Assembly: GCF_024710845.1 (NCBI RefSeq)
Contig: NZ_JANJTZ010000066.1
Span: 124,001 to 188,000, forward strand
Direction: 5' to 3'
Length of the DNA stretch: 64,000 nucleotides
Source of the DNA: Mesorhizobium sp.
GTDB taxonomy: Bacteria > Pseudomonadota > Alphaproteobacteria > Rhizobiales > Rhizobiaceae
Part shown: one piece after another, positions 11,747 to 33,948 of the stretch
Layout of the letters: every line of letters begins with the position of its first letter
Numbering within the stretch: position 1 is the first letter of the stretch
Program-made: the position numbers and the translations under genes
The notes under the pieces: model-generated
Told to the model about the DNA's origin: nothing
The model's database searches: none
What the model saw: only the letters and a program-made list of their open reading frames with translations

Positions 11747-11748
11747 GG

Positions 11749-13353: not shown

Positions 13354-13358
13354 TCTCG

Positions 13359-13862: not shown

Positions 13863-13864
13863 GC

Positions 13865-18180: not shown

Positions 18181-19395
18181 ATGCAGAACTTCACGGGGCT
18201 GAACGAGAAGCGGAACCTGTTCGATCTCGACGCCGAGCAGCAGATGATCCTCGACAATGCGGACCGCTTCGCCCGCAACGAGCTCTATGCGCTGTCCGAG
18301 AAGATGGACAATGAGGAGTGGTGGCCCGAGGAGGCGTTCCCGAAGATCGGCGACAACGGCCTGTTCGGCATCACGGTGCCGGAGGAGTATGGCGGGGCGG
18401 GGCTCGATCTCGTGGCGGCCGGCCTTGTGCTGCAGGGTCTGGCGCGCTGGAACCATGCGATGGCGCTGGCCTGGGTCGCGCACGACAATCTCTGCGCCAA
18501 CAACATCTATCGCAACGGCAATGACGCGCAGCGGCGGAAGTATCTCCCGGACCTCTGTTCGGGCCGCAAGATCGGCGCGCTCGGCCTGACGGAGCCCGGC
18601 GCCGGCTCCGACGCACTTGGCTCGATGCGCACGACGGCGCGGCGCGACGGCGACCACTACGTGCTCAACGGCTCGAAAATCTACATCACCAATGGACCGG
18701 TGGCCGACGTGCTGCTCGTCTACGCCAAGACGGACAAGGACAAGGGTGCGCACGGCATTTCGGCGTTCATTGTCGAGAAGGACATGAAGGGCTTCAAGGT
18801 CGCGCAGAAGCTCAAGAAGATGGGCTATCGCGGCAGCCAGACGGGCGAACTGCTGTTCGAGGACTGCAGGGTGCCGGCGGAGAATCTCGTCGGCGGGGAG
18901 AACCGTGGCGTTGCGGTCGTGATGAGCGGGCTCGACCTCGAGCGCGCGATGATCTCGCCGCTGTGCCTCGGCATCGCCGAGCGCGCTCTGGAACTGTCCG
19001 TCGACTACGCCAAGACCCGCAAGCAATTCGGCAAAGCGATCGGTTCGTTCCAGATGGTGCAGTCGATGCTGGCCGACATGTATGTGCAGGTCGAGACCAT
19101 CCGCAGCTTCACCTACCGCGTGCTGGCGGCGGCCGCGCCGCTCGAGATCGGCGAGGGCGGGCGCGGCGACATCCATATGCTGACGGCGGCCTCGGTTATG
19201 TATGCCGCCGAAGCGACGCACAAGGTGCTCGACCTCGCCGTGCAGGTGCATGGCGGAACCGGCTATATCTGGGAATCGGAGATCAATCGCCTGTTCCGCT
19301 CGACCAAGCTGATGGAGATCGGCGCCGGCACGACGGAAGTGCGCAAGATGATCATTTCGGGCGAACTGCTGAAGGGGACGGACCGCAATGGCTGA
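18181..19395 (+). CDS. Acyl-CoA dehydrogenase, isovaleryl/citronellyl-CoA type
   Basis: 404 aa FAD flavoprotein introducing a 2,3 double bond into an acyl-CoA. GALGLTEPGAGSDALGSM is the FAD/substrate signature. GSKIYITNGPVADVLLVYAKT and the SGLDLERAMIS segment resemble isovaleryl-CoA dehydrogenase and AtuD, with a Glu in LDLER where isovaleryl-type enzymes place the base. The C-terminal QVHGGTGYIWESEINRLFR is also typical. It starts after GGGAGGGATGAGACGAC. The product would feed the carboxylase encoded on the opposite strand, giving a liu/atu-like order of reactions. Confidence 0.9.
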   Translation: MQNFTGLNEKRNLFDLDAEQQMILDNADRFARNELYALSEKMDNEEWWPEEAFPKIGDNGLFGITVPEEYGGAGLDLVAAGLVLQGLARWNHAMALAWVAHDNLCANNIYRNGNDAQRRKYLPDLCSGRKIGALGLTEPGAGSDALGSMRTTARRDGDHYVLNGSKIYITNGPVADVLLVYAKTDKDKGAHGISAFIVEKDMKGFKVAQKLKKMGYRGSQTGELLFEDCRVPAENLVGGENRGVAVVMSGLDLERAMISPLCLGIAERALELSVDYAKTRKQFGKAIGSFQMVQSMLADMYVQVETIRSFTYRVLAAAAPLEIGEGGRGDIHMLTAASVMYAAEATHKVLDLAVQVHGGTGYIWESEINRLFRSTKLMEIGAGTTEVRKMIISGELLKGTDRNG

Positions 19396-20248
19396 AGCGG
19401 GCGAGGCACCGGAGTTCGGGCTCGACGACGAGGCGCTGTGGGCGCATCCGACGATCTACGGACCGGCCGCCTTCGCCGGCAAGACGGTGCTGATCTCCGG
19501 CGGCGCTGGCGGCATCGGCCGGGCGACCGGGTGGCTGTTCGGCCGCTGCGGCGCGAAGCTCATCCTGGCCGGGCGCAGCGAAGCCAAGCTCGGATCGGCC
19601 GTCGAGGTGATGCGGGCAAAGGGGCTCGACGTCTCGGCCCACACCGTCGACATCCGAGAACCGGACAGCGTCGCCGAACTCTATCGCAAGACGAGCGAGG
19701 AGGGCGGTTTCGACATCCTCATCAACAGCGCCGGCGGCCAGTTCCCGCAGGCGGCGATCGACTTTTCGGTGAAAGGCTGGAACACGGTCGTCAACACCAA
19801 TCTCAACGGCACCTGGTACATGATGCAGGGCGCCGCACGCGCCTGGCGCGACCAGAACCGGCCGGGCAGCATAACGACGATCGTCGTGGTCACCCGGCAG
19901 GGCCTGCACGGTGTCGCTCACACCATCGCGGCGCGGTCGGGCGTGGTCGGCCTGACGCAGGCGCTCGCGGTCGAATGGGCGCCGCTGAAGATCAGGCTCA
20001 ACTGTATCGCGCCGGGCGTCATCGAGACGCCGGGTTGGCGGGTCTATGATCCGAAGGCGCTGGAGGCCTATCCGAAATCCAACCCGATGATGCGCAACGG
20101 CAGTACATGGGACGTCGCCGAGGCCTGCGGCTATCTCGCCGGGCCGGGGGCGGAGTATGTGACGGGCGAGGTTCTCAACGTGGCTGGCGGCGCTCAGCTC
20201 TGGGGCGAGACCTGGACGACCGGCAAGCCGGACTATTTCAAGGTTTGA
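19388..20248 (+). CDS. SDR family protein, trans-2-enoyl-CoA reductase-like (atypical active site)
   Basis: 286 aa Rossmann-fold protein. SGGAGGIGRATGWL is the cofactor loop and NSAGGQFP the NAG-like motif. The usual YxxxK is replaced: the segment reads VAHTIAARSGVVGL, with Thr for Tyr and Arg for Lys. From memory a similar GAARAGV stretch occurs in PECR-like enoyl-CoA reductases and related SDRs, so this looks like a subfamily trait, not decay. The ATG overlaps the end of the dehydrogenase gene by 8 bases (ATGGCTGA), so the two are coupled. Confidence 0.8.
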   Translation: MAEAGEAPEFGLDDEALWAHPTIYGPAAFAGKTVLISGGAGGIGRATGWLFGRCGAKLILAGRSEAKLGSAVEVMRAKGLDVSAHTVDIREPDSVAELYRKTSEEGGFDILINSAGGQFPQAAIDFSVKGWNTVVNTNLNGTWYMMQGAARAWRDQNRPGSITTIVVVTRQGLHGVAHTIAARSGVVGLTQALAVEWAPLKIRLNCIAPGVIETPGWRVYDPKALEAYPKSNPMMRNGSTWDVAEACGYLAGPGAEYVTGEVLNVAGGAQLWGETWTTGKPDYFKV

Positions 20249-20257
20249 CGATCCGGC

Positions 20258-20761
20258 CTACGCCGGGCGCAGGAAGTGCATGAACTCGAAGACGACGCCA
20301 TCCGGGTCCTCGGCGCAGAAAATCTTCATCACTGAGCCGCCAAGTGTGATGTCGGTCGGCGGGGAGTAGACGCGGAAGCCGGCCGCGACGAGGCGGTCGT
20401 GCACCGCGTCGGCATCGGTCGTGCGCATGCAGATCCGCCCGACGCCGGGATGCGCGAGCGTCCTTGGCGGAAGCGATGCTTCCTTCGGCGATCTCCATTC
20501 GATCAGGTCAATGCGTGGTCCGTGGCGGTCGCCCTTCAGCTTCATGAGCACGGCGCGGCCGGCGCAGTCGTCGGGCAAGTTCAGGACCGGCCCCAGCCCG
20601 ACTTCGCCGAAGCCGGCGTCGCCGGAGAAATCGTTCACGACCTCGAAGCCGAGGAGGCGGTAGAAGGCGAGTGAGCGTTCGAAATCCGTGCAGTTGACGT
20701 TGATGTGGAAGAACGAGGCGACGTCGCCCCGGTCCTCGCCGTCCTGCCTGATCGCCGTCAC
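20258..20761 (-). CDS. VOC superfamily (glyoxalase-like) protein
   Basis: 167 aa protein with two beta-alpha-beta-beta-beta modules: HINVNCTDFERSLAFYRLLGFEVV at the start and VGRICMRTTDADAVHDRLVAAGF, then CAEDPDGVVFEFMHF. The His near residue 19 and the Glu in VVFEF are the usual metal ligands of glyoxalases, dioxygenases and epimerases. A methylmalonyl-CoA epimerase-like or lyase role is possible, not shown. The start overlaps the TetR stop (ATGA), so it is expressed with that regulator. Confidence 0.78.
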   Translation of the reverse strand: MTAIRQDGEDRGDVASFFHINVNCTDFERSLAFYRLLGFEVVNDFSGDAGFGEVGLGPVLNLPDDCAGRAVLMKLKGDRHGPRIDLIEWRSPKEASLPPRTLAHPGVGRICMRTTDADAVHDRLVAAGFRVYSPPTDITLGGSVMKIFCAEDPDGVVFEFMHFLRPA

Positions 20762-21417
20762 TTGAAGACCTTGCCCCGCAGGAGTTTCACGTAGGTATCC
20801 ACGACGCTCGGAGCCGGTCTTACGAAATCCCCGTCCTCGTAGCAGAAGCGACCCGACAGGTATTCGCGGGTCGAGATCAGCATCTGCATCAGGATGTCGA
20901 TCTCCAGCGGATCATCGATCAGGAGGTTGCCGCGCCGCCGCTCATATTCCAGGGCCCGGCGATAGCTTGCCGACTGCTTCTCGAGGTGGGCGCGGAAGCC
21001 CCGCGGCGCCTGAACGGGGCCTTCGCTGAGAATCTTGAAGAGGTGGGGCTCCTTCTCGAGGAACTCGAAGAAGCCGCTTAGCCGCGCCCGTTCGCGCTCG
21101 ATCGGGTCGTCCGGAGCCTGCATGACCCTCTGGCGGATCAGGTCGTGCAGCCGTTCGCTGATCGATGGCAGCAACTGGTCGAGCAGATCCTGCCGCGATT
21201 CGAAATAGTTGTAGAACGTGCCCTGCGCGACGTCTGCCCGCGCTGTGATCAGCGCCACCGACGCCCCCGCATAGCCCAGTTCGCCGACGATCTCGATCGC
21301 CGCCTCGAACAGGCGCGCCCGCGTGGCCTCGGCCTTTTCCGCGCGCGTCGGCCGCGTCTTGCGGACGTCGCGGGGCAAGAGCGGTGCAACTTTCGATGTC
21401 GGCGAATTGGTAGCCAT
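20758..21417 (-). CDS. TetR family transcriptional regulator
   Basis: 219 aa regulator with an N-terminal helix-turn-helix (about 30-75): ATRARLFEAAIEIVGELGYAG, then DVAQGTFYNYFESRQDLLDQ. The rest is a helical ligand-binding domain. It is divergent from the TRAP/Lva-like operon and followed by the VOC gene. A 27-base inverted repeat sits 44 bases upstream of its start, in position to control both directions. The likely inducer is an acyl-CoA or the transported acid, which is inference. Confidence 0.88.
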   Translation of the reverse strand: MATNSPTSKVAPLLPRDVRKTRPTRAEKAEATRARLFEAAIEIVGELGYAGASVALITARADVAQGTFYNYFESRQDLLDQLLPSISERLHDLIRQRVMQAPDDPIERERARLSGFFEFLEKEPHLFKILSEGPVQAPRGFRAHLEKQSASYRRALEYERRRGNLLIDDPLEIDILMQMLISTREYLSGRFCYEDGDFVRPAPSVVDTYVKLLRGKVFK

Positions 21418-21460: not shown

Positions 21461-21487
21461 AAATGAATTATGACTCGTGATTCATTT
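21461..21487. promoter_or_regulatory. Candidate TetR operator, 27-bp inverted repeat
   Basis: Perfect 8-base arms AAATGAAT (21461-21468) and ATTCATTT (21480-21487) with an 11-base spacer, in the divergent region between the TetR gene (start 21417) and the TRAP operon (start 21668). The size and position suit a TetR dimer or pair of dimers. It carries the same ATGAA/TTCAT half-sites as the 15-bp dyads elsewhere but with different spacing. Confidence 0.5.
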
Positions 21488-21667: not shown

Positions 21668-22762
21668 GTGAGTTCATTTGCACGAAAGCTTATCGCTGCG
21701 ACCGCCATTCTCGGCGTGGCACTGACGACGACGGCCAGCGCCGCCGACCTCATCATCTCCACCGGCCTCGGCAAGCCGCATCCGTGGGTCGGCGCCCATA
21801 TGGACCCGTTTGCGGACGCGATCGAGAAGGGCAGCCCAGACGTCAAGTTTACCCGGTTCTATGCCGGCGAGCTCGTCGGTGTCGGCAAGGAGCTCGACGC
21901 GCTGACCAGCGGCACCATCGCGGTCGCCGCACCGCTCCTGGCGCCCTATCACGAGGGCCGCTTCCCGCTGTCCGACGTGACCCAGCTCCCAGCCTACGGC
22001 ACCGACTCGCCGATGGTCACGCGCGCCTTCCAGAAGATGCTCGATTCCGACGTCGCGCTGAAGGACGGGAAGACGTTCTACCAGTACGAGATCGCGGATA
22101 AGGGCATCCGCGCCTGGGCGCTCGGCGCCACCGCCCCGTATTCGATCTCGACCGTCAAGAAGGTGCTCAAGGAGCCGGCTGACTTCTCCGGCACGCCGCT
22201 GCGCGCCGGTTCGGCCTTGCACACGATCATGCTGGAGAAGCTCGGCGCCACGCCGGTGACGCTGCCCGGCTCGCAGGCCTTCGAGGCCGCCTCGCGCGGC
22301 ACGATCGAGGGTCTCGTGATCGCGATCTCCGACTGGCCGTCCTATTCGCTGCAGCAGTTGCTCCGCCATTCGATCGTCGACGTGTCGATCGGCCATTGGG
22401 AGAGCTACCTGGCGATCAGCGACGCCGCCTGGAACGAGCTCACCGACGACCAGAAGGCTCTGTTCGACAAGAGCGCCCGCGACGTCGGCATGTCCAACGA
22501 GAAGGAATGGGAAGACCGTCTGACCAAGGTCAAGGACGAATCGATCGCCAAGGATGGCGGCTCGTTCGTCTCCATCGACGACCTGTCCCAGGCGATGAAG
22601 GATCACATCCAGAAGGCCGCCGCCGACACCTGGGTCGCCTGGATCGAGAAGACCGAGGCCAACGGCCACCCGGCCAAGGCCGCCGCGAAGCTCTATGCGG
22701 AGCTGATCCAGGCCGAGGGCGGCACGCTGCCCGAAGGCGTCGCCGACTACCTCGCGAAGTAA
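21668..22762 (+). CDS. TRAP transporter solute-binding protein (DctP family)
   Basis: 364 aa periplasmic binding protein of a TRAP transporter, the type that captures carboxylic acids. The GTG at 21668 is preceded by AAGGGAGGG and gives a clean signal peptide ending TTTASA before ADLIISTGLG. Further ATG codons upstream would spoil the signal peptide. The mature part has typical DctP segments (GSQAFEAASRGTIEGLV; WNELTDDQKALFDKSA). It begins the operon that continues with the permease genes and the Lva-like enzymes, so its ligand is probably the acid those enzymes degrade. Confidence 0.88.
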   Translation: MSSFARKLIAATAILGVALTTTASAADLIISTGLGKPHPWVGAHMDPFADAIEKGSPDVKFTRFYAGELVGVGKELDALTSGTIAVAAPLLAPYHEGRFPLSDVTQLPAYGTDSPMVTRAFQKMLDSDVALKDGKTFYQYEIADKGIRAWALGATAPYSISTVKKVLKEPADFSGTPLRAGSALHTIMLEKLGATPVTLPGSQAFEAASRGTIEGLVIAISDWPSYSLQQLLRHSIVDVSIGHWESYLAISDAAWNELTDDQKALFDKSARDVGMSNEKEWEDRLTKVKDESIAKDGGSFVSIDDLSQAMKDHIQKAAADTWVAWIEKTEANGHPAKAAAKLYAELIQAEGGTLPEGVADYLAK

Positions 22763-22825
22763 GCGAAGCAACCGGCCCAAAGCGGCGCCGCCCTCGCGCG
22801 GCGCCCACCCACCGGTGGAGCGAGC

Positions 22826-24139
22826 ATGTCCAAGGACTGGATCATCTGGGTCGTCACCCTCTGGATCGTCGTCTTCATGATGGCGGGCCAGGCGGTCGCC
22901 ACCTGCCTGCTCGGCGCGGGCATTCTCGGCGTCATGCTGTGGATGAACCCGGCCGTGCTCAACGGCATCATCGGTCAGGACACGTTCTACACCGCGTCGA
23001 CCTATACGCTCTCGATCATCCCGCTCTATCTCCTGATGGCGCAGCTGCTGCTCAAGGGCGGCGTCATCGTCGACCTGTTCCGCGTCGGCCACCGCATCGC
23101 CGGATACCGCCGCTTCCCGCTCGGCGTCGCCACGCTGGTCACCGGCGGGCTGCTCGGCGCCGTCTCCGGGTCGGGCTCCGCCAGTGCGGCCGCGCTCGCG
23201 ACGCTGGCCGGCCCCGAGCTCGAGCGCGTCGGCTACACCCGCTCCTTCTCGGTCGCGCTCGCCGCCATCTCGGGCTCGCTGTCGGTCATCATCCCGCCGA
23301 GCCTCCTGATCATGATCTACGGCTCGCTGACCGAGACTCCGATCGGCCATCTCTTCATCGGCTCGATCGGGCCGGCGATGCTGTGCATCCTCGTCTATAT
23401 CGCCTGTCTCTACGTCCTCGGCGACGTGGTGCCGGGCGTGGCCGACGGCGTGAAGGGCGACGAGGGCGAGGAGGATCCCGCCGCCACGCGCCGCTCCGTC
23501 GCCGCCTTCACCTTCGTGCTGGCGCTGATGTTCGTCGTGTTCGGCGGCATCTACGGCGGCGTCGTCACGGTGGGCGAGGCGGGTGCGCTCGGAGCCTTCG
23601 CTGCCTTCGTCGGCATGCTCGCGATGCGCCGCGTCACAGCGCGCGACATCGGCCAGGCGCTCGTCGATTCCGTCAAGGTCTCGGCCATGCTCCTGATGCT
23701 GCTCATCGCCGCGCAGATCTTCTCGCGCTTCATGTCCTTCTCGCGCCTGCCGACCGAACTGCTGCACTTCGCCGAGCCGCTGGTCGCCAGCCCCACGGTC
23801 CTGGTCCTCGTCCTGATGGCCGGCCTGTTCGTCGCCGGCATGGTGCTCGAAGAGGTGACCACGATCGTGCTCGCCATTCCCATCATCCTGCCGATGGTAC
23901 AGGCGGCGGGCATCGACGTCATCTGGTTCGGCGTGCTCGCGTGCTTCGTCATCTCGCTCGGCCTGCTCACTCCGCCGGTCGGCCTGGTCGCCTTCTCGGC
24001 GGCGACCGCCGCGCGCACCCCCGTGGGGCCGGTGTTCCGGCCCTGCATGGTCTTCTCCACCATCTCCGCCGTCGTGGTCGTGCTCGCGATGATGCTATTT
24101 CCCGGCATCGCGACCTGGCTGCCGAGCCATCTGAACTGA
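22826..24139 (+). CDS. TRAP transporter large permease (DctM family)
   Basis: 437 aa inner-membrane protein with about 12 hydrophobic segments, the Na+-coupled transport subunit of a TRAP system. Conserved stretches are LGAVSGSGSASAAALATLAGPE, IIPPSLLIMIYGSLTE and GLLTPPVGLVAFSAA. It follows the binding-protein gene after 63 bases and precedes the small permease gene by 9 bases. The order P-M-Q differs from the more frequent P-Q-M. Confidence 0.92.
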   Translation: MSKDWIIWVVTLWIVVFMMAGQAVATCLLGAGILGVMLWMNPAVLNGIIGQDTFYTASTYTLSIIPLYLLMAQLLLKGGVIVDLFRVGHRIAGYRRFPLGVATLVTGGLLGAVSGSGSASAAALATLAGPELERVGYTRSFSVALAAISGSLSVIIPPSLLIMIYGSLTETPIGHLFIGSIGPAMLCILVYIACLYVLGDVVPGVADGVKGDEGEEDPAATRRSVAAFTFVLALMFVVFGGIYGGVVTVGEAGALGAFAAFVGMLAMRRVTARDIGQALVDSVKVSAMLLMLLIAAQIFSRFMSFSRLPTELLHFAEPLVASPTVLVLVLMAGLFVAGMVLEEVTTIVLAIPIILPMVQAAGIDVIWFGVLACFVISLGLLTPPVGLVAFSAATAARTPVGPVFRPCMVFSTISAVVVVLAMMLFPGIATWLPSHLN

Positions 24140-24148
24140 GGGCGGACG

Positions 24149-24694
24149 ATGCGATTCTGGAGAGCGATCTGGGCCTTCGAATGGGGTCTCGCGGCCTTCG
24201 GCGCCGGCTCGATGCTGTTCGTCATGATGATGGTGACGGTGATCAGCGTCGCCGGGCGCTACTTCCTGCAGATGGACCTGATCCCGGGCGCCTACAACAT
24301 CGTCGAGCGCATTCTGTTCCCGCTGCTCGTTTTCTGGGCCCTGCCGATCGCACACCGCGACGGGCTCTTCCCGCGGCTGGAAACCTTCGTCGACACCCAG
24401 CCGTCTGGCCGCCGGGCGCTGGTCGGCGCGGTCGTGCTGGCGGTCGAGATCGCCGTCTACGGCGTCTTCCTCTACTACGTGTCGCGCTTCGTCTGGAGCA
24501 GCATCGCCAGCAACCGCTCGATGCAGATCGGCACGGACTTCCTGCCGCTGTGGCCGATCCTGATCATGATGCCGCTCGCCTTCGGCCTGATGCTGCTCGA
24601 AATGCTCAGGCTGCTCTACCGCGACGTCCGCCGGGTGCTCGGCCACGCACCGCCGCCCGACGACGCCCCGCACCACGGAAGCTCCGCCGTATGA
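24149..24694 (+). CDS. TRAP transporter small permease (DctQ family)
   Basis: 181 aa membrane protein with four hydrophobic segments (about 12-35, 45-65, 90-112, 130-152) and the family stretch MMVTVISVAGRYFLQMDLIPGA. It pairs with the DctM subunit encoded just upstream. Its stop overlaps the start of the phosphotransferase gene (ATGA at 24691-24694), which ties transport and catabolism into one transcription unit. Confidence 0.9.
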   Translation: MRFWRAIWAFEWGLAAFGAGSMLFVMMMVTVISVAGRYFLQMDLIPGAYNIVERILFPLLVFWALPIAHRDGLFPRLETFVDTQPSGRRALVGAVVLAVEIAVYGVFLYYVSRFVWSSIASNRSMQIGTDFLPLWPILIMMPLAFGLMLLEMLRLLYRDVRRVLGHAPPPDDAPHHGSSAV

Positions 24695-25776
24695 CTGCCA
24701 CGACCCTTCGCCCGCGGCCGGCCGATGCGCCCGCGGCCGTCTTCGACCCGACCGACGTCGAGACCGTCCGCGCGACGCTGGCCGACTTCGCCGCCGCGCA
24801 GGTCGGCGGCCTGGTCGAGATCGGCCCGCTCAGGCGCTTCACGGTCGGCTTTTCCTGGGTGACATATGGCTTCCGCGCGATATGGGCAGAGGAGGGGCGC
24901 ACGGTCGAGCGGAACCTCATCCTGCGCGCCGGGCCGCCCACGGGCATCTTCGGCCCCTACAAGGCCTATCCGGAGTTCGTCACGCTGAAGGCGCTTGAGA
25001 CGAGCACCGTGCCGGTGCCGCGCGTCTACTGGTCCAGCGACGACCTTTCGATCCTCGGCGCGCCGTTCTTCGTCTGCGACCTGGTGCCCGGCGAAGCGCC
25101 GATTCCGTGGACGCATGACGGCGGCCCCGCCTTCGACGAGGAGCGGCGAGTGCTGCTCGGCACGCAGTTCGTCGGCGCGCTGGCCGCCCTGCACGATTTC
25201 AGATGGCAGGACACGCCCGTCGCGACCATCGACGGCACCAAGGACGTTGCCCACACGGCGATCGACCAGGTCGACCACTGGATGGATCTGCTCGGGCGCT
25301 GGTCGCCGGAGCGGGTGCCGATGCTGGAGATGGCGGCCGCCTGGCTGCGCGAGCACGCGCCCGTGGCGTCGCGCATCTCGATCACGCATGGCGACTACCG
25401 GATCGGCAATTTCCTCGAGGTGGACGGGAAGATCACCGCGATCCTCGACTGGGAACTGGTAAGGCTCGGCGATCCGGTCGAGGATCTCGGCTGGGTCTGC
25501 CTGCAGGCCTGGCGCGGACGCTCGCCCTACATGTGCCATTTCTTCGAGCGCGAGGAGCTGCGCGACCGCTACGCGGCGCTGACCGGCAACGAGGTGACAC
25601 TCGCGCAAATGGCCTATTGGGAGGCCTTCGGCACCTACAAGCTGGCGATCATGCATTACGGCGCGACCGACTGCTTCTCGCGGCGCGGCTTCAACGACCT
25701 GCGAATGGCCGGCATGGGCGCGCAGATCCCGCGCATGCTGCTGCAGCTCGAATCGGCGATGGAGCGCGCGTCGTGA
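24691..25776 (+). CDS. LvaA-like acyl-CoA phosphotransferase (APH/ACAD10-11 kinase type)
   Basis: 361 aa aminoglycoside-phosphotransferase-fold kinase. The catalytic loop is ITHGDYRIGNF (231-241) and the metal-binding motif ILDWELVRLGDP (251-262). It is the same class as the kinase domain of ACAD10/ACAD11 and as Pseudomonas LvaA, which with LvaB phosphorylates the 4-hydroxyl of 4-hydroxyacyl-CoA using ATP. The gene order supports this reading: the small partner follows at once (GTGA overlap), then a CoA ligase and an acyl-CoA dehydrogenase. The exact chain length is unknown. Confidence 0.78.
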   Translation: MTATTLRPRPADAPAAVFDPTDVETVRATLADFAAAQVGGLVEIGPLRRFTVGFSWVTYGFRAIWAEEGRTVERNLILRAGPPTGIFGPYKAYPEFVTLKALETSTVPVPRVYWSSDDLSILGAPFFVCDLVPGEAPIPWTHDGGPAFDEERRVLLGTQFVGALAALHDFRWQDTPVATIDGTKDVAHTAIDQVDHWMDLLGRWSPERVPMLEMAAAWLREHAPVASRISITHGDYRIGNFLEVDGKITAILDWELVRLGDPVEDLGWVCLQAWRGRSPYMCHFFEREELRDRYAALTGNEVTLAQMAYWEAFGTYKLAIMHYGATDCFSRRGFNDLRMAGMGAQIPRMLLQLESAMERAS

Positions 25777-26246
25777 ACATTCCGCTCAGCCGCCTGATCG
25801 ACGGCATCATCGCGACGATGCGCAGCGACGTGATCCCGCATGTCGCCGACCCCTATGCGCGCGGCCAGGCGGTCGGCGTGATCGACCTGCTCAACAACAT
25901 CGCGCCCCGCGTGGAATGGGCGCAGGCGCCGCTTGCGCGGCTCGTCCAGGCCAAGCGCGACCTGCTGGCCGAGATCGCCGCGCTGGCGCCCGGTGTCGCG
26001 GCGCCGCCTGCAGCGGACGCGGCGCTCGACAGCGCCGACGACCTGCTGGCAGCCAAGGGACGGCTCGACGCCGCGATCGGCGACGCCATCGCTCTGATCT
26101 GGCCACGCCGGCACGAGGCGGCGTTCGGCCGTGCGGCGGCGCTGGTCCAGGCGCATCTGCACGACGAAATGGCGGCGGAACTGAAAATGACGCGCAAGCC
26201 CCTGTTCGCGGAAATCGCGAGCGGCGGCGAGGGTGCCAAGAGCTGA
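25773..26246 (+). CDS. Small helical protein, possible LvaB-like partner of the phosphotransferase
   Basis: 157 aa, mostly alpha-helical and Ala-rich, no signal peptide and no catalytic motif I know. The N-terminal part reads MNIPLSRLIDGIIATMRSDV, then IPHVADPYARGQAVGVIDLL. It uses GTG 25773, overlapping the kinase stop (GTGA). In the levulinate pathway a small protein (LvaB) encoded right after LvaA is required for kinase activity. Position, size and helical character match, but I cannot confirm homology by eye. Confidence in the gene is high, in the role moderate. Confidence 0.72.
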   Translation: MNIPLSRLIDGIIATMRSDVIPHVADPYARGQAVGVIDLLNNIAPRVEWAQAPLARLVQAKRDLLAEIAALAPGVAAPPAADAALDSADDLLAAKGRLDAAIGDAIALIWPRRHEAAFGRAAALVQAHLHDEMAAELKMTRKPLFAEIASGGEGAKS

Positions 26247-26257
26247 GGGAGGCGGGC

Positions 26258-27877
26258 ATGACCTATCATCTTGATCCCAGAATGCCGGCGGCAGAAGCAT
26301 GTATCCAGCGGTCCATGCTGGAGCGCTGGGCGTCCGTGCAGCCGGACAAGGTGTTTGCAGTCTTTGCCGACGGCAGCACGTGGACCTATGCGCAGACGCT
26401 CGACGTGACGATCCGCACGGCGAACGCGCTGCGGGCGCTCGGCGTCAAGCAGGGCGAGCGCGTGATGGTCTGGCTGCCGACCAGTGCCGACTGCCTGCGC
26501 GTCTGGTTCGGCCTCAACTATCTCGGCGCGGTCTTCGTGCCGCTCAACCTCGCCTATCGCGGCAACCTGCTGCAGCACGCGCTGAAGCTGTCGGAGGCGC
26601 GGCTCGGCATCGTGCATGGCGATCTCCACCAGCGGCTGGGAGACATCGATCGCGGGCAGCTCCAAACGATCGTCGTGCTCGGCGGCGAAGGCCAGCCGGT
26701 GGAGGGCCTGAAGGTCTTACCGGACTCGTCGCTCCAGTCGACAGACGCGCGCGCACCGGAACTGGAACGCGAGATCGCGCCCTGGGACCTGCAATCGATC
26801 ATCTTCACGTCCGGAACAACCGGTCCGTCCAAGGGCGTGCTGTCTTCCTATGTCCACCTTCACGAGATGGCCAAGGCCGCGCCCTTCCTCGACGGCGACG
26901 ACCGCTACCTGATCACGCTGCCGATGTTCCATTCGGGCGGCGTCATGCCGGTGACGGCGATGCTGATCCACGGCGGCTCGATCGCCATCGTCGAATCCTT
27001 CAGCACCGAGAATTTCTGGCCGACCATCCGCCGCGCGCAGATCACGACGGTGATCCTGCTCGGCGTGATGGGCAGCTTCCTGCTCAAGCGCCCGCCGAGC
27101 GATGACGACAGGAACCACACATTGCGGACCTGCACCTACGTGCCGCTCAACGACACCGCCCCCCAGTTCCACGAACGGTTCGGCACCGACATCCACACCC
27201 ATTTCAACATGACCGAGATCTCGATGCCGATCGTGTCGCAGGCGAACCCGACTGCGCTCGGCAGCGCCGGCCGGCCGCGCGATGGTGTCCAGGTCCGCCT
27301 CGTCGACGCCAACGATTGCGAGGTGCCGGTCGGCACGGTCGGCGAGATGGTCGTGCGCACCGACTGCCCGTGGGCGATGAACCACGGCTATGCCGGCAAT
27401 GCGGAGGCGACCGCAGCCGCCTGGCGCAACGGCTGGTTCCACACCGGCGATGGGTTCCGCATGGACGCCGAGGGCAACTTCTTCTTCGTCGACCGGCTGA
27501 AGGACGCGATCCGCCGGCGCGGCGAGAACATCTCCTCCTTCGAGGTCGAATCCGAGGTGCTGGCTTATCCGGCGATCCGCGAGGCGGCCGCCGTCGCGGT
27601 CAAGAGCGAGGTGGCCGAGGACGAGGTGATGGCGATCGTGGCGTTGAAGGAAGGCGAGGCTTTCGACCCGGCCGACCTGATCGAGTTCCTGCGGCCGCGC
27701 ATGGCCCATTTCATGATCCCCCGCTACGTGCGCGTGGTCGACGGCTTGCCGCGCACGCCGACGGCCAAGATCGAGAAGGTGAAGCTGCGGGAGGAAGGGC
27801 TGACCGCGGACACCTGGGACCGCGAGAAGGCGGGAATCACCATCAAACGCGAAAAGGTCGGCGTGAAGAACGCCTGA
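26258..27877 (+). CDS. Acyl-CoA synthetase (CaiC/LvaE-like AMP-dependent ligase)
   Basis: 539 aa ANL ligase. [16 protein letters not shown] is the phosphate-binding motif, [10 protein letters not shown] the adenine-side motif, [12 protein letters not shown] and [15 protein letters not shown] the hinge region, and [13 protein letters not shown] the catalytic-Lys region. It resembles crotonobetaine/carnitine-CoA ligases. It starts at ATG 26258 after GAGGGAGGCGGGC. Inside the Lva-like module it would form the CoA thioester of the imported acid before phosphorylation. A close paralog lies at 59747-61351. Confidence 0.88.
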
Positions 27878-27888
27878 CGGAGGAAGTT

Positions 27889-29091
27889 ATGTTCGCTGAA
27901 CTGTCGCCCCATGCCCGGGACTTGCGCGACCGCCTGGTCGCGTTCATGGACGAGTACATCTACCCCAACGAGCACGAGCTCCTGACGCCGCCGCCCGAGG
28001 CGCAGCGCTGGGCGCCGCGGCCGCTCGCCATGGCGCTGATGGAGGAGGCCAAGGCGCAAGGCCTGTGGAACCTGTTCTACAATCACGGGCCGGAAGGGCA
28101 GGGGCTGTCCAACTTCGAATATTCGCAGCTCTGCGAGATTCTCGGCCGCTCGCTCGCCGCCCCCGAGATTTTCAACTGCAACGCGCCCGACGTCGGCAAC
28201 ATGGAGATCCTGTCGACCTACGGCACCGAGGCGCAGAAGCAGCGCTGGCTGAAGCCGCTGCTGACCGGCGAGATCCGCTCCTGCTTCGCGATGACCGAGC
28301 CGCGCGTCGCCTCGTCCGACGCCACCAACATCGAGACCGAGATCCGGCCGGACGGCGACCACTACATCGTCAGCGGCCGCAAGTGGTGGGCGACCGGCGC
28401 GCCGTCGCAGCGCTGCAAGGTCGCGATCGTGATGGGCAAGAGCGACAAGTCGGCCGCCAAGCACAAGCAGCAGTCGATGATCCTGGTGCCGATGGACGCG
28501 CCGGGCGTGCGCGTCGAGCGCGCGCTCAGCGTCTATGGCTACGAGCATGCGCCGCTCGGCCATGCGGAAATCGTCTTCGACAACGTGCGGGTGCCGGCGG
28601 AAAACATCCTGCTCGGCGAAGGGCGCGGGTTCGAGATAGCGCAGGGGCGGCTGGGGCCCGGTCGTATCCATCACTGCATGCGCTTCATCGGGCTGGCCGA
28701 GCGGGCGCTGGAGATCATGTGCCAGCGCGCGAAGTCGCGCGTCGCCTTCGGCTCCAGCCTTGCCGAGATGGGCGCGGTGCGCCAGGCGATCGGCCAGTCG
28801 CGCTGCGACATTGAGCAGATGCGCTTGGTGACGCTGAAGGCCGCCTGGATGATGGACAGGGTCGGCAACAAAGCCGCCCGCAACGAGATCGCGATCGCCA
28901 AGATCGTGGTGCCGGAGACGGCCGGCAAGGTGATCGACCGCGCGATCCAGGTGCATGGGGGGGCGGGCCTGTCGCAGGACTTCTTCCTGGCGGAAGCCTT
29001 TGCCGAAACCCGCTTCCTGCGCATCGGCGACGGGCCCGACGAGGTCCACCGCGAGGCGCTCGCCCGTGTCGAACTGGCGCGACTCAACTGA
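27889..29091 (+). CDS. LvaC-like acyl-CoA dehydrogenase (ACAD10/11 type)
   Basis: 400 aa flavoprotein. [21 protein letters not shown] is the ACAD10/11 version of the FAD signature, followed by [23 protein letters not shown] and [20 protein letters not shown]. The C-terminus has [19 protein letters not shown] and [10 protein letters not shown]. This subgroup acts after the APH-type kinase: in the lva route LvaC processes the 4-phosphoacyl-CoA toward the 3-hydroxy isomer. It starts after GGAGGAAGTT, 11 bases past the ligase stop. Confidence 0.87.
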
Positions 29092-29101
29092 GGGACATGA
29101 G

Positions 29102-29548
29102 ATGATTCCACTGCAAGCCGGCCAATCGGTCGTTACCGGCGGCCGCACCATCGGGGAGGGCGACGTGAACCTGTTCGCCGGCCTCGTCGGTGATTTCACG
29201 CCGATCCATATCGACGAGACCTTCGCTCAGAAGTCGCCGCATGGGACACGCATCGCGCACGGGCCGCATTCGATGGCCACCGCTATCGGCATGGCGACGC
29301 ATACCGGCCTGTTCGGCGAGCGCGTCATCGGGCTGGTCAACCTCAACTGGGATTTCGCCGGCGCGGTGAAGATCGGCGACACGATCCGTTCGCGCGTCAC
29401 GGTCGAGGAGGTGCGCCCCACCTCCAAGCCCGGGCGCGGGCTCGCGACCTACCTGTTCGAAGTTCTCAACCAGCGTGACGAGCCGATCCAGCGCGGGCGC
29501 ATGAAGGTCATCGTCACGCTGGACGACACCGCGGAGGCGGGACAATGA
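29102..29548 (+). CDS. MaoC-like (R)-specific enoyl-CoA hydratase
   Basis: 148 aa hotdog-fold protein with the hydratase-2 motif LFAGLVGDFTPIHIDETFAQ, giving the catalytic Asp/His pair. It would hydrate a trans-2-enoyl-CoA, for example the enoyl-CoA made by the upstream dehydrogenase. It lies 10 bases after that gene, and its stop overlaps the start of the next (ATGA). The chain length preference cannot be read from sequence. Confidence 0.85.
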   Translation: MIPLQAGQSVVTGGRTIGEGDVNLFAGLVGDFTPIHIDETFAQKSPHGTRIAHGPHSMATAIGMATHTGLFGERVIGLVNLNWDFAGAVKIGDTIRSRVTVEEVRPTSKPGRGLATYLFEVLNQRDEPIQRGRMKVIVTLDDTAEAGQ

Positions 29549-30549
29549 GCGACAAATACATCATGCGGCCCGAGCACGAGTTCAGCCACCAGCCGGACCA
29601 GTCGATCAACTTCAACGAGAGCGTCTACACCAACGCCTTCGACCCGAAATCCGCCTTCGGCGGCTGGATGCGGCTCGGCAACCGGGTCAACGAGGGCTAT
29701 GCCGAGCTCTCCGTCTGCCTCTACCTGCCCGACGGGCGCATCGCCTGCCAGTTCCAGCGGCCCGCGATCACGACGAACGAGAAGCACGAGGCCGGTGGCA
29801 TCAAGTATATCGTCAACGAGCCGCTGAAGAGCGTCACGATGTCGTATGACGGCGACCTCATCATCGTCGACAATCCGGAGGATCTGCGCAATCCGCAGGA
29901 GCTGTTCGCCAAGGGGCCTCGGCTGCCGGGTCACGTGTCGTGGACCCATGTCGCCGAGTCGCCGGTCCACGGTGGCGAGCCGGTCGACGACAGCGTGCAG
30001 ACGATGTACGGCCGCGATTTTTCGCTCGGCCATTTCAACCAGCACGGCCGCGCCAGGGGTGTGATCAAGGTCGGTGACGAGAGCTGGGAGATCGACGGCC
30101 ATGGCTGGCGCGACCATTCCTGGGGCCCGCGCTACTGGCAGGTGATCTATTTCTACCGCCTGTTCATCGCCAATTTCCCCAATGGCGACGGCTTCATGCT
30201 GCTCAAGATCACTGACCAGGAGGGCAAGGTGCGCCGCCAGGGCGTGCTGCTGGTCGACGGCGACTACGAGGAGGTGCTCGACCTCGAGGTGCAGACCGAC
30301 TGGACGGAGCAGCAGGACCCCGCCTTCGTGCGGCTGGGCGTCATGACGGCGAAGCGAAAGGTCCGCATCGACGGCGAAATCCTCAAGCTCGCGCCGCTGC
30401 GCAATCGCCGCAAGACGGACGAGGGCGTGCTGGTCAGCCGGGTCGCGGAAGGCTTCACCCGCTTCACCTGGGGCGATCAGGTCGGCTACGGCATGACCGA
30501 ATATATCGAGCGGATCGAGGACGGGAAGATCGTCGGCTATCCGCTCTGA
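29545..30549 (+). CDS. Lipocalin/AttH-like protein of unknown function (DUF7064-like)
   Basis: 334 aa protein without signal peptide. The conserved GHGWRDHSWGPRYW (about 188-201) is typical of AttH/CrtC-like double-lipocalin-fold proteins seen beside acyl-CoA or steroid genes. Other features are YGRDFSLGHFNQHGRARG and a C-terminal FTWGDQVGYGMTEYIER. It may bind or act on a hydrophobic acyl compound. It is co-translated with the MaoC-like hydratase by a 4-base overlap and ends the TRAP/Lva-like operon. Function unknown. Confidence 0.72.
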   Translation: MSDKYIMRPEHEFSHQPDQSINFNESVYTNAFDPKSAFGGWMRLGNRVNEGYAELSVCLYLPDGRIACQFQRPAITTNEKHEAGGIKYIVNEPLKSVTMSYDGDLIIVDNPEDLRNPQELFAKGPRLPGHVSWTHVAESPVHGGEPVDDSVQTMYGRDFSLGHFNQHGRARGVIKVGDESWEIDGHGWRDHSWGPRYWQVIYFYRLFIANFPNGDGFMLLKITDQEGKVRRQGVLLVDGDYEEVLDLEVQTDWTEQQDPAFVRLGVMTAKRKVRIDGEILKLAPLRNRRKTDEGVLVSRVAEGFTRFTWGDQVGYGMTEYIERIEDGKIVGYPL

Positions 30550-30567: not shown

Positions 30568-32109
30568 TCAGGATTTGAGCCGGTCTTCCATCTCGTGGCG
30601 AAGGATCTTGCCGGTGGTGGAGCGGGGAAAATCCTCGAAGCGGATGAAGTGCACGGCCTTCGGCCGCTTGTAGCCGGCCAGCTCCTGCCGGCAGAGTCTT
30701 TCAACGTCGCCTTCGGACAGGCTGTCGTCGGTGCGCGAGACGAAGGCCACCGGAACCTCGCCCCAGCGGTCGTCCTTCTGGCGCACGACGATCGCGTCGC
30801 TGACGCGCGGGTCGGACAGGAGCACGCGCTCGATCTCCGCCGGATAGATGTTCTCGCCGCCCGATTTGATCATGTATTTGGCGCGGTCGACGAAGTCGTA
30901 GCTGCCGTCCTCGTTGCGGCGGAACAGGTCGCCCATGCGGAACCAGCCGCCCTTGAAGTCGCGCGCATTGGTCTCGGGCGCGTTCCAGTAGCCGGAGAAA
31001 ACCGTCGGACCGCGCACGGCCGCCTCGCCCGGCTCGCCGTCGGGCACCTCGTTGCCGTCGGGGTCGACGAGCTTGAGGTCGCAGAACGCGCTCTTGCGCT
31101 TGGACAGGCTTTCCGGAACGACGCCCGGCGGGAACAGGCGGGACGATGCCGGCGGAAGGCCGGTCTCGGTCGAGCCGAACGAGTTGAGATAGGGCGCGCC
31201 GGCCAGCCGCGAGAGTTCGGCGATCAGGTGATGAGGCACCAGGTCGGCCATAGCGCCAACGGCCCGGATGCTTCTGGGGCGCCGGCCGGTCCTCTGCAGC
31301 AGTTCGACCACCGGCTCGATCGAGCCCGGCATCAGCAGCATCCAGCCGAGGTCGTTCTCCTCCATCAGGTCGACGATCCGCTCGGCGTCGAACCCGTCGA
31401 CGATGTGGACGGTCGCGCCGGACATCAACGCACCCAGCACCTGGTCGGTCGAGCCCATGTGGAACATCGGCGCCCAGGCGATGAAGCCGTCGCTCTCGCG
31501 GGCATGCATGTCGATCCGCAGGACCATGTTGCGCGCCATCTCGGCGCGATGGCTGATCAGCGCGCCCTTCGGCAGCCCGGTGGTCCCTGAGGTGTAGAGG
31601 ATAACGAGCCCGTCTTCCGGGTCGACATCGGGAAGCTCGGCCAACGGCTCTGCATCCGACAGAAGCAGCTCATACTCGGATTCGAGGACGAGCAGCCTGC
31701 GCCCGCGCAGATCGAGGCTTCGGGCGGTTGGAGCATAGCGCTCCGAGGCGATGACGAGGCACGGCTCGACGAGATCGATGCAGTGCTGCAACTCGGCCGG
31801 CGCCAGGCGCCAGTTCTGGCAGGCGACGATGGCGCCGAGGCAGGCGGCGGCAAGCTCGATCTCGGCATATTCCTGCCGGTTCTCGGAGATGAGCGCGATG
31901 CGCTCGCCGCGCGCAACGCCAATTCCGGCGAGCGCCGAGGCAAGGCGAAGCACGCGCTTATCCAGATCGCGGTAGGTGAGGCGCGCGGAGGCGGTGTTCA
32001 GCGCAATGGCGTCGGGGTCCCGCCGCACGCAGGCGCGGAAGAGGCCGTGGACGGTCAGCTTGCCCGCAGCCGCGACGCCGTCGCGCCAATTGCCTGTGGT
32101 CGATTGCAT
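30568..32109 (-). CDS. AMP-dependent acyl-CoA synthetase (fatty-acyl type)
   Basis: 513 aa ANL ligase. VILYTSGTTGLPKGAL is the phosphate loop, SFGSTETGLP the adenine motif, GWFRMGDLFRRNEDGSYDFVDRAKYMIKSGGENIYP the hinge region, and PRSTTGKILRHEM holds the catalytic Lys. It starts after GGGAGGAGACCC. It is the last of three minus-strand genes with a TetR and an enoyl-CoA hydratase, so probably activates the acid whose CoA ester controls that TetR. Substrate unknown. Confidence 0.87.
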   Translation of the reverse strand: MQSTTGNWRDGVAAAGKLTVHGLFRACVRRDPDAIALNTASARLTYRDLDKRVLRLASALAGIGVARGERIALISENRQEYAEIELAAACLGAIVACQNWRLAPAELQHCIDLVEPCLVIASERYAPTARSLDLRGRRLLVLESEYELLLSDAEPLAELPDVDPEDGLVILYTSGTTGLPKGALISHRAEMARNMVLRIDMHARESDGFIAWAPMFHMGSTDQVLGALMSGATVHIVDGFDAERIVDLMEENDLGWMLLMPGSIEPVVELLQRTGRRPRSIRAVGAMADLVPHHLIAELSRLAGAPYLNSFGSTETGLPPASSRLFPPGVVPESLSKRKSAFCDLKLVDPDGNEVPDGEPGEAAVRGPTVFSGYWNAPETNARDFKGGWFRMGDLFRRNEDGSYDFVDRAKYMIKSGGENIYPAEIERVLLSDPRVSDAIVVRQKDDRWGEVPVAFVSRTDDSLSEGDVERLCRQELAGYKRPKAVHFIRFEDFPRSTTGKILRHEMEDRLKS

Positions 32110-32151
32110 CGGGTCTCCTCCCTGCGTGCAACTCGGAATGTCCTGGGAGCG

Positions 32152-32853
32152 CTACAAGGCCGGCTTGCCCGCCAGATTTTCGAGCCTTTCGACGGCCTTT
32201 TCCAGCCGGTCGGCAAGGTCGGGTCCCTGGGGCGTGCGGCGGATCTGAAGGCCGCTCAACACGAGGTCGACGATGGAATCGGCCGTTGTGTCCGGATCGA
32301 ACTGCCCTTCACCGCGCAGATAGGCCCAGGTGTGGTGTTCGATGCAGCCGTAGATCATGTCGCGGACGAGGCGCAGCGTGACGTCATTGCGGAGTTCGCC
32401 GGCCGCGATGCCCTCCTTGATGATGTCGAGCGTACGGCGCGTGTACTGCTTGTTGAGCTCGTAGACCGTGGTGTGGCTGTAGTCCCTGCCTGTGCGCAGG
32501 AACTGGAACATGAGATCGCAGAGCGCCGGTTCCTCGTGGATGGTCATGAGGTGGCGCCAGATCATGAAGCGCAGCCGGTTGCGCGTGCCGCGGATGCCCG
32601 AGAGCTGCTGGTCGTAGTCGGCCAGCATCGCCTCGTACCAGTCCTCGATCACCTTGACGAGCAGGTCGCGCTTGTTTTCGAAGTAGCGGTAGATCGAGCC
32701 TTCGACGACGTTGGCGCGTTCGGCGATGTCGGACATCGGCGCGTCTTCGTAGCCCTTTTCGCGGAAGACGTCGCGGGCGGCGGCCATGATGTCGGCGACG
32801 CGGCGTTCGCGCGAAAGCCTGAAAACCTGGCGGCGTGCTGGTCCGTTCTTCAT
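32152..32853 (-). CDS. TetR family transcriptional regulator, paralog A
   Basis: 233 aa. The helix-turn-helix spans about 17-62 (RVADIMAAARDVFREKGYED, then NVVEGSIYRYFENKRDLL). The ligand domain has RFMIWRHLMTIHEEPALCD and RDMIYGCIEHHTWAYLRGEG. The same segments recur almost unchanged in the TetR at 50858-51556, so the two are paralogs and may share operators and ligands. The start at 32853 overlaps the hydratase stop (ATGA). It probably regulates its own operon through the dyad at 33718. Confidence 0.88.
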   Translation of the reverse strand: MKNGPARRQVFRLSRERRVADIMAAARDVFREKGYEDAPMSDIAERANVVEGSIYRYFENKRDLLVKVIEDWYEAMLADYDQQLSGIRGTRNRLRFMIWRHLMTIHEEPALCDLMFQFLRTGRDYSHTTVYELNKQYTRRTLDIIKEGIAAGELRNDVTLRLVRDMIYGCIEHHTWAYLRGEGQFDPDTTADSIVDLVLSGLQIRRTPQGPDLADRLEKAVERLENLAGKPAL

Positions 32854-33659
32854 CCGTCCTCCATCCGGAAGCTCGCCGGCCGCCGTTCGGCGAAAGCCGC
32901 CATGCCCTCCCACCATTCCGCGCCGGCGGATGCGGCAAGAACCGCGTCCAATGCGATTCGGTCGGCCTCGTCCGGCGCGGCCGTTTCGCAGCGGTACAAT
33001 GCGCGTTTGGTCTCTGCAACGGAAATGGGGCTGCACAGCAACAGCCTTTTGGCGAAGGCGAGCGCCGAATCGGCAAGTTCGGAGCCGGGGTGAACCGCAG
33101 TGACGAGGCCTGCGGCTTTCGCGTCGACCGCCGTCAACTGGTCGCCAAGGAGCGCTATTTCCAGGGCCTTGGCGCGACCGACGACGTGAGCGAGCGACTG
33201 CACACCGCCGGCGGCGGCGAGCGCGCCGAGGCGGGTTTCAGTCAGGCCGATCCGCGCATTGTCCGCCATCAGGCGGAAGTCGCAGGACAGCGCCAGCTCG
33301 CAGCCGCCGCCCAGCGCAAAGCCGTTGATCGCGGCGATCGTGACGAAGGGCGCTTCGCGTAATCGGCGGAAGACCCGGATGATGGGGAGCACGTAGTCGT
33401 CGCGGATCGCGCGGGCATTGCGGTAGAGCGGCGAGGCGGGGTCGGTGAACAGCCTGATATGGGCACCGCCGCAGAAGGTCTTGCCCGAACCGGTGACGAT
33501 CAGCACGCGCGCACCACCGGCCGAAGCCTCGTCGAGCAGGCGGTCGAGGGCCACGAGCAGTTCCGTGGTGAGAGTGTTGTGCGTGTCGCCTCTCGCCAGC
33601 GTGATCTGCGCGATGCCCGCGACCGGCCATGCCAGTTCCGCCGCCTCTGCCTGCCCCAT
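32850..33659 (-). CDS. Enoyl-CoA hydratase/isomerase family protein
   Basis: 269 aa crotonase-fold enzyme. TFCGGAHIRLFTD and NGFALGGGCELALSCD are the oxyanion-hole segments, and ARIGLTETRLGALAAAGGVQSL covers the active-site region. It has Glu at the first catalytic place (TETRLG) but Ala-rich sequence where the second Glu usually is, so a hydratase or an isomerase is possible. The ATG at 33659 follows GGAGGAATGG; upstream in-frame starts lack a ribosome site. First gene of a three-gene minus-strand operon. Confidence 0.82.
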   Translation of the reverse strand: MGQAEAAELAWPVAGIAQITLARGDTHNTLTTELLVALDRLLDEASAGGARVLIVTGSGKTFCGGAHIRLFTDPASPLYRNARAIRDDYVLPIIRVFRRLREAPFVTIAAINGFALGGGCELALSCDFRLMADNARIGLTETRLGALAAAGGVQSLAHVVGRAKALEIALLGDQLTAVDAKAAGLVTAVHPGSELADSALAFAKRLLLCSPISVAETKRALYRCETAAPDEADRIALDAVLAASAGAEWWEGMAAFAERRPASFRMEDG

Positions 33660-33717
33660 CCATTCCTCCACAATTCCGATAATGGCCAGTTGACAAACTG
33701 TGCCGATCAATCTCTTA

Positions 33718-33732
33718 ATGAACACAATTCAT
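33718..33732. promoter_or_regulatory. Candidate operator, perfect 15-bp dyad
   Basis: ATGAA-CACAA-TTCAT, perfect 5-base arms, 59 bases upstream of the hydratase-TetR-ligase operon. It sits in the 289-base region (33660-33948) divergent from the Liv-type ABC operon. The best-matching copy of the ATGAN-N5-NTCAT motif. The rest of this region holds no credible gene. Confidence 0.48.
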
Positions 33733-33948
33733 CATTTCGTAGCCAAGCGCAAGAGAACTTATGAGCGCGGGCGGCGGTTCCGGGGAGGGGAGAGATGAGC
33801 TGGACCGACTGGAATTCTTTGCGCTGCAGTGCGGAAACCGCCTGCTCGTGATGGCCTGCACCAATCTTCCTCGCTCCACCGGAATTCATTCAAGATGACC
33901 GTCCGTCGAATTGATAAGCGTTGTTCATTTGTGCCGCGGTCCTGACGC

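Follow-up and report, generated by a model that had tools for sequence, protein, structure and literature searches.

The window analysed here, the whole 64,000-nucleotide stretch of a Mesorhizobium sp. genome (contig NZ_JANJTZ010000066.1, positions 124,001 to 188,000), carries at 21668-30549 an operon of nine co-directional genes from which the gene of a TetR-family regulator diverges (Table 1). Pfam searches of the open reading frames (ORFs) of the window agreed with the genes, order and interval given for this operon in a first-pass annotation made from the sequence: a complete tripartite ATP-independent periplasmic (TRAP) transporter (DctP, DctM and DctQ), an aminoglycoside phosphotransferase (APH)-type kinase with both of the motifs named for it (HGDYRIGN and ILDWE), a 157-aa helical protein, an AMP-binding acyl-CoA ligase, an acyl-CoA dehydrogenase (ACAD), a MaoC-like hydratase and a DUF7065-DUF7064 protein. 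The ATGA/GTGA overlaps said to join these genes were found, 4 bp long, at the DctQ/kinase, kinase/157-aa protein and MaoC/DUF7064 junctions, but all other junctions within the operon are gaps of 9-63 bp. No short-chain dehydrogenase/reductase (SDR) equivalent to LvaD was detected by the Pfam search of the operon ORFs within 21668-30549. In a PDB profile search, the solved binding proteins nearest to DctP were distant (best match 5i5p, 9.5e-18), and the DUF7065-DUF7064 protein matched the Rv3169 family of NCBIfam at 1.7e-9, far under the cut-off of that family.

The operon is real and conserved. A scan of genomes with the kinase identified relatives in Tianweitania sediminis (L053, 76% kinase identity) and Prosthecomicrobium hirschii (now Prosthecodimorpha hirschii; L054, 78%), a search of plasmids identified another on a plasmid of Sulfitobacter alexandrii (L009, 62%), and a search of viral contigs returned no relative. 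All three share the order TetR / DctP-DctM-DctQ-kinase-small protein-ligase-ACAD-(MaoC)-DUF7064, and because the same order is found in three other alphaproteobacteria at 62-78% kinase identity, it is not a product of chance. If the start homologous to that of the window is taken, every one of the four genomes has a 4-bp overlap between the kinase and 157-aa protein genes. A MaoC gene lies inside the operon in the window and T. sediminis and beside the Atu-type module described below in L009 and L173. A palindrome, AATGAATnnTGAnTCGnnATTCATT, stands between the TetR gene and dctP in every one of the four; its consensus was built from three genomes, and P. hirschii fits this consensus, differing at 2 of the 20 fixed positions. 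With up to three mismatches allowed it is a single site in the window, and 0 of 100 shuffles contained such a site. The palindrome is likely the TetR operator.

The dehydrogenase had been annotated as ACAD10/11-type, an assignment now backed by matches to solved structures, phylogeny and an Asp motif. Its nearest solved structures are those of ACAD11 (2wbi, 6e-131; 8v3u, 7.1e-131; 8v3v, 3.5e-130) and a putative ACAD (4hr3, 2.4e-125), with the next match at 8.5e-43, and a tree of 54 rows places it within an ACAD10/11-type clade (32 rows, support 100/99) separate from an LvaC-type clade (13 rows, 100/100). Read by eye, the motif xDG..VH/IH has Asp in all 50 ACAD10/11- or LvaC-type rows and Glu in the four other ACADs. 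Published work describes a predicted catalytic Asp common to LvaC and ACAD10/11 (PMC12440821), and phosphorylation-elimination chemistry for ACAD10/11 and their bacterial LvaA/LvaC relatives (PMC12440821, PMC11342911). Identity between the ACAD of the window and those of 13 DUF6285-linked loci, labelled lvaC, is 36-38%, figures with which the published identities of LvaC to ACAD10/11 disagree. Since an ACAD10/11-type ACAD was present at E ≤ 1e-100 in 129 of 398 sampled genomes of the phylum, about a third, this enzyme alone is not rare.

Neither Pfam (E ≤ 1) nor NCBIfam (E ≤ 0.001) returned a match for the 157-aa protein; a single-sequence search of 385 genomes of the class gave matches in seven genomes at E ≤ 0.01 (its own and six weak ones), and only three records of the plasmid collection matched, over about the first 50 residues. 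DUF6285, a family that neighbours such kinases, was chosen for comparison. It was matched in 11 of 150 sampled phylum genomes and, over the cut-off, in 24 of 298 genomes of a Pseudomonas-like genus, of which 10 and 18, respectively, supplied the 28 loci that were read. An APH kinase match precedes DUF6285 in all 28, and seven loci (L152-L157 and L161) are ordered kinase-DUF6285-ACAD-SDR-ligase, as in lvaABCDE. At L152 a divergent PrpR/sigma-54 regulator is followed by APH, DUF6285, ACAD, SDR, AMP-binding and sodium/solute symporter family (SSF) genes, the DUF6285 protein being 118 aa long, which fits the 12-kDa LvaB (PMC6692424). We equate DUF6285 with LvaB because the gene order of L152 and like loci matches the lva operon; the label lva was given on gene order and gene families, and loci so labelled, not Pseudomonas putida KT2440 itself, form the reference set. 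An earlier attempt to find lva operons through ACAD matches in the presumed Pseudomonas genus had led to ACAD10/11-type loci without DUF6285 alongside and was set aside. LvaB is reported to bind LvaA and to be required for growth on levulinate (PMC6692424, citing Rand 2017). The same source reports no lvaB homologue in the corresponding region of P. citronellolis, but the loci resembling that region here do carry DUF6285. Seven lva-like loci (L158-L160 and L162-L165) have about 0.5-0.7 kb extra between DUF6285 and the ACAD relative to L152; this may be the arrangement with a histidine phosphatase that has been reported for P. citronellolis, but DUF6285 is present in these loci.

A hidden Markov model (HMM) of six close small proteins, run over 337 genomes, had matches at E ≤ 0.05 in 12, its own included. 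Five of its eight non-self matches at E ≤ 0.01 are kinase-adjacent (L177, L178, L180, L181 and L188; in L178 and L181 the small gene precedes the kinase), and three (L176, L179 and L187) have no kinase alongside in the stretch read; L179 was rejected on inspection as a false positive overlapping a DksA-like ORF. A further kinase-adjacent match, L021, came from the first single-sequence search, and because the kinase profile already contained the kinases of the five HMM loci, L021 is the sole independent find. When a profile of 14 small proteins was compared with the 28 DUF6285 proteins, the alignment spanned almost the full length of both (query 1-147, template 4-119; 114 columns), with P = 4.9e-6 and a probability of 86%. 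Leave-one-out runs gave P from 2.3e-6 to 5.6e-4, none of 200 column shuffles reached the score, and ten unrelated families scored at most 14.4 against 39.6 for DUF6285. Both proteins are predicted to consist of four main helices that follow one another alike (6-24, 27-62, 72-84 and 91-112 in LvaB/DUF6285, with a predicted local distance difference test score (pLDDT) of 93.8; 5-23, 27-71, 88-112 and 116-140 in the 157-aa protein), and of the 14 columns invariant among the six close small proteins, 11 sit in the first 50 residues. The LvaB likeness suggested at first pass therefore reappears in the profiles as a remote homology reached through kinase-adjacent intermediates, and in the structures as far as the shared helices go. 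Judged by these profiles, the 157-aa protein is a remote LvaB/DUF6285 homologue, with much of the signal coming from the intermediate L021, and we predict that it is the partner of the kinase.

The kinase itself groups apart from the DUF6285-paired, LvaA-type kinases in a tree of 50 rows. Three lineages were resolved: kinases next to ACAD10/11-type ACADs, without a small partner (11 rows, 100/99); DUF6285-paired, LvaA-type kinases (27 rows, 98/89; 27 of the 28 DUF6285-locus kinases passed the adjacency filter, L150 failing it); and a separate clade of the window type (7 core rows, 100/99). Twelve kinases were labelled Sml, of which those of L177, L178, L180, L181 and L188 are long branches outside the seven-row core and of unsure placement. 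The operon thus pairs a dehydrogenase of the ACAD10/11 type with a partner-type kinase from a separate lineage. In a profile search of the PDB the kinase was best matched by 3ats (4e-24), which we take to be Rv3168, followed by 9o56, 3dxp, 9fsg and ACAD11 (8v3v, 1.5e-10). Elsewhere in the genome of the window, on contig C44 (L015, 7782-12163), a second ACAD10/11-type ACAD (51%) accompanies a kinase of the partnerless lineage. On a plasmid of Variovorax sp. SRS16, whose source is linuron-contaminated soil, locus L011 (7290-11475) contains two kinase/small-protein pairs near each other, in a region with liv-type ATP-binding cassette (ABC) transporter genes.

We consider, with moderate confidence and by analogy, that this operon, presumably under TetR control, would take up a 4-hydroxy carboxylic acid and strip it of its hydroxyl through phosphorylation-elimination of the LvaA/LvaC and ACAD10/11 type; the kinase and ACAD steps are proposed because of homology to assayed enzymes (PMC12440821, PMC11342911). 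The acid would enter through the TRAP system and be converted by the ligase to a 4-hydroxyacyl-CoA, the 4-hydroxyl would be phosphorylated by the APH kinase with its co-translated LvaB-like partner, and the ACAD10/11-type ACAD would turn the 4-phosphoacyl-CoA into a 2-enoyl-CoA with no net oxidation. The MaoC protein might then hydrate this product, or it might pass to an Atu-type carboxylation branch. The data above establish the gene families, the conservation of the unit and the ancestry of the ACAD and the small protein; the catalytic steps, the complex of kinase and partner, the control by TetR and the substrate are predictions.

Several observations weigh against this reading. The kinase is better matched by 3ats than by the ACAD11 kinase and lies outside both lineages that hold types tested on 4-hydroxyacyl-CoA, and the program used for the ACAD tree warns of long branches meeting. 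The Pfam DUF6285 model matches neither the 157-aa protein nor nine tested relatives; that model covers only residues 23-115 of the L152 protein and therefore leaves out the first helix. Dropping L021 lowers the LvaB match to P = 5.6e-4, a probability of 30% and 66 columns, five of eight leave-one-out runs cut it to 66-85 columns, and the six and the seven closest small proteins alone give probabilities of 4.8% and 5.7%, respectively. The DUF6285 profile also scores 28.3 against TetR. The model of the 157-aa protein was built on three sequences (pLDDT 79), and PDB fold searches with both small-protein models found nothing at E ≤ 0.001 and no Z ≥ 8, a negative outcome that rules nothing out; a PDB profile search with DUF6285 gave one row (E = 0.047). 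Finally, the 21 kb read at L010 and L011, where the nearest kinase/small-protein pairs beyond the four operons lie, contain no ACAD10/11-type ACAD. This last arrangement would fit a kinase acting on a non-CoA alcohol, with kinase and ACAD not catalysing consecutive steps, but we consider this unlikely because kinase, small protein, ligase and ACAD10/11-type ACAD are linked in all four genomes.

The operon is different from the textbook lva operon (lvaABCDE of P. putida KT2440), a comparison made with lva-ordered loci rather than the KT2440 proteins. Common to both are an APH kinase with a small helical partner next in order, a CoA ligase and an Asp-motif ACAD, whereas the window has a kinase of another lineage, a remotely related partner, an ACAD of the ACAD10/11 clade, no operon SDR, a TRAP transporter in place of an SSF symporter, TetR in place of a sigma-54 regulator, and additional MaoC and DUF7064 genes. 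The Lva-like pathway proposed at first pass is accordingly upheld for its kinase, LvaB-like partner, ligase and Asp-bearing ACAD, in an operon shared by four genomes and once plasmid-borne, but not for the kinase lineage, the grouping with LvaC, the SDR or an LvaE-type ligase; the ligases of the seven lva-ordered loci are closer to another ligase of the window (6494-7999) than to that of the operon (two references compared). These differences make a plain levulinate or 4-hydroxyvalerate operon with another transporter very improbable, even though the kinase, LvaB-like protein, ligase and ACAD are of the general type and an SDR is encoded upstream; the genome moreover carries the other ACAD10/11-type ACAD and kinase on contig C44. 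In mammals, ACAD10 and ACAD11 fuse kinase and ACAD. No named solved structure is closer to the ACAD of the window than the ACAD domain of ACAD11, with which it has the Asp motif in common; the kinase of the window is separate, of another lineage and accompanied by a small partner. The Rv3167c-Rv3168-Rv3169 region of Mycobacterium tuberculosis likewise has a TetR gene, next to an operon of two genes (PMC5340868). Rv3169 resembles the window protein by the weak NCBIfam match, and the operon as described has no TRAP transporter, ligase or ACAD, unlike the window. We found no description of a TRAP transporter combined with a kinase/ACAD operon, nor a match for DUF6285, DUF7064 or DUF7065, among the papers listed from the literature searched, a scope that leaves most subscription papers outside, and among the matches listed none named a TRAP transporter with levulinate, 4-hydroxyvalerate or gamma-lactone; the earlier impression that TRAP coupling is an undescribed variant agrees with this.

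Upstream of the operon lies an Atu-type module that the first-pass annotation overlooked. The gene set for acyclic terpene utilisation (Atu) comprises AtuA, a carboxylase, an ACAD, an SDR and a hydratase, and the module likewise has AtuA, a carboxylase of the methylcrotonyl-CoA/geranyl-CoA carboxylase (MCC/GCC) lineage, an ACAD, an SDR and a hydratase; its carboxylase differs from that of the Atu pathway in being nearer MCC, in its selectivity site and in being found with a TRAP/kinase operon. At that site the Phe of MCC, which blocks larger substrates, corresponds to Gly162 of GCC (PMC4673880). By our reading of the alignments, Ala occupies it in the window, Sulfitobacter and P. hirschii, the three carboxylases read there (the Tianweitania stretch did not reach the site), and with Ala rather than Gly and an MCC-type three-residue insertion the enzyme is not GCC proper. 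Operon and module occur together in all four genomes and are adjacent in three (window, Tianweitania and Sulfitobacter). For comparison, AtuA was found at E ≤ 1e-100 in 31 of 205 class genomes, own included, and at 66% identity or more in one of the 204 others (G057, 69%), the three other operon-bearing genomes having 76, 70 and 66%. The Atu module of G057 (L199; carboxyltransferase 85%) has Gly at the selectivity site by alignment, and G057 is not among the small-protein matches, its inclusion in the 385-genome search being inferred.

This association is open to two tentative readings. In the first, which we hold possible but short of an even chance, the two modules form one continuous pathway: kinase and ACAD would produce a 3-methyl-2-enoyl-CoA from a beta-methyl-branched 4-hydroxy acid (isoprenoid or its gamma-lactone), which the GCC-like carboxylase, AtuA and hydratase would degrade. 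The rarity of such an AtuA elsewhere, the isovaleryl-CoA-dehydrogenase-like upstream ACAD, the presence of a MaoC gene in either module and a carboxylase whose lineage acts at the gamma position of 2-enoyl-CoAs and in which Ala replaces the blocking Phe (PMC4673880) are consistent with it. However, no palindrome with up to three mismatches precedes the Atu module, there is no sign of co-regulation, and in P. hirschii the module lies about 1.4 Mb from the operon on the contig, which argues against a single regulon; G057 has the module without a place among the small-protein matches, and only four operon-bearing genomes are known. In the second, which we regard as comparably tentative, two separate pathways process distinct parts of a single larger natural product and are co-located for that reason. 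The separate control fits this, as does the recurrence of TRAP, liv-type ABC and sugar-type ABC transporters and several ligases with the modules in varying arrangement, but the operon comes with an importer and a ligase of its own, and no common larger substrate is known. Because the modules co-occur and because of the carboxylase selectivity site, the substrate of the proposed dehydroxylation is perhaps a beta-methyl-branched 4-hydroxy acid, whose enoyl-CoA could feed the carboxylase. The fullest form of the proposal, a two-component 4-hydroxyacyl-CoA kinase of a third lineage, made up of the kinase and a remote LvaB-like activator, in a complete and transferable pathway for beta-methyl-branched 4-hydroxy acids or their gamma-lactones, with dehydroxylation and terpene-type carboxylation consecutive, we regard as less likely than not.

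Table 1 Features of the window and of related loci, with their positions and the matches that identify them
Feature	Position	Strand	Evidence or remark
Carboxyltransferase, MCC/GCC lineage	11749..14043	-	PF01039 1.9e-131; MCC 1.8e-178, GCC 1.1e-133; true start probably downstream of ORF start
Biotin carboxylase subunit	13865..15538	-	PF02786, PF00289, PF02785; start uncertain
AtuA	15346..17166	-	PF07287 1.2e-147, PF23544 2.9e-24
Enoyl-CoA hydratase/isomerase family	17172..17969	-	PF00378 1e-53
ACAD, isovaleryl-CoA-dehydrogenase-like	18181..19395	+	Best PDB match isovaleryl-CoA dehydrogenase 4o5m 3.2e-107
SDR oxidoreductase	19388..20248	+	PF13561 1.5e-43
Glyoxalase-fold protein	20258..20761	-	PF00903 1.1e-13; also in L053; not in L009, L054 and L173 as read
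TetR-family regulator	20758..21417	-	PF00440 9e-11; divergent from operon; kept in 4/4 genomes
Palindrome AATGAATnnTGAnTCGnnATTCATT, likely TetR operator	21462..21486		Function inferred
DctP, TRAP substrate-binding protein	21668..22762	+	PF03480 1.2e-23; best PDB relative 5i5p 9.5e-18; GTG start
DctM, TRAP large permease	22826..24139	+	PF06808 1.1e-64
DctQ, TRAP small permease	24149..24694	+	PF04290 6.2e-16
APH-type kinase, predicted 4-hydroxyacyl-CoA kinase	24691..25776	+	PF01636 1.3e-25; HGDYRIGN/ILDWE
157-aa helical protein, predicted kinase partner	25773..26246	+	Remote LvaB/DUF6285 homologue by profile; GTG start
AMP-binding acyl-CoA ligase	26258..27877	+	PF00501 9.2e-61; nearest NCBIfam PRK06155, below cut-off
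ACAD10/11-type ACAD	27889..29091	+	Best PDB match ACAD11 2wbi 6e-131; ACAD tree; Asp motif GDGPDEVH
MaoC-like hydratase	29102..29548	+	PF01575 3.6e-20
DUF7065-DUF7064 protein	29545..30549	+	PF23212 9.5e-19, PF23213 2.9e-12
Module C: ligase, TetR and enoyl-CoA hydratase (-); liv-type ABC transporter with ligase (+)	30568..40473		liv subunits named by Sulfitobacter likeness
Sugar-type ABC transporter with fused permease	L009 15345-20643; L053 16026-21048; L054 15691-21084		

The wider neighbourhood is also partly shared. Each of the other three genomes has counterparts of module C next to either the operon or the Atu module. A sugar-type ABC transporter whose permease is fused to a strictosidine-synthase/SMP-30-like domain follows the operon directly in those three and is absent from that place in the window; contig C33 of the same genome (L114) carries two paralogous sugar-type ABC sets with 46-60% identity to the Sulfitobacter proteins. 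On the minus strand at 1493-12082 the window encodes histone-deacetylase-like, dimethylformamidase-like, ligase, thiolase, transglutaminase-like, 4HBT, enoyl-CoA hydratase and DsbA-like genes, and counterparts of the thiolase, transglutaminase-like and DsbA-like genes also flank the Atu module of P. hirschii.

If the proposed pathway is correct, it would take the catabolism of 4-hydroxy acids beyond levulinate and the lipid-derived compounds by adding a dedicated import route, and it would provide a second kinase-partner family in which to study the unexplained requirement for LvaB. It would also suggest how hydroxylated branched acids of the isoprenoid type might enter the Atu carboxylation route.

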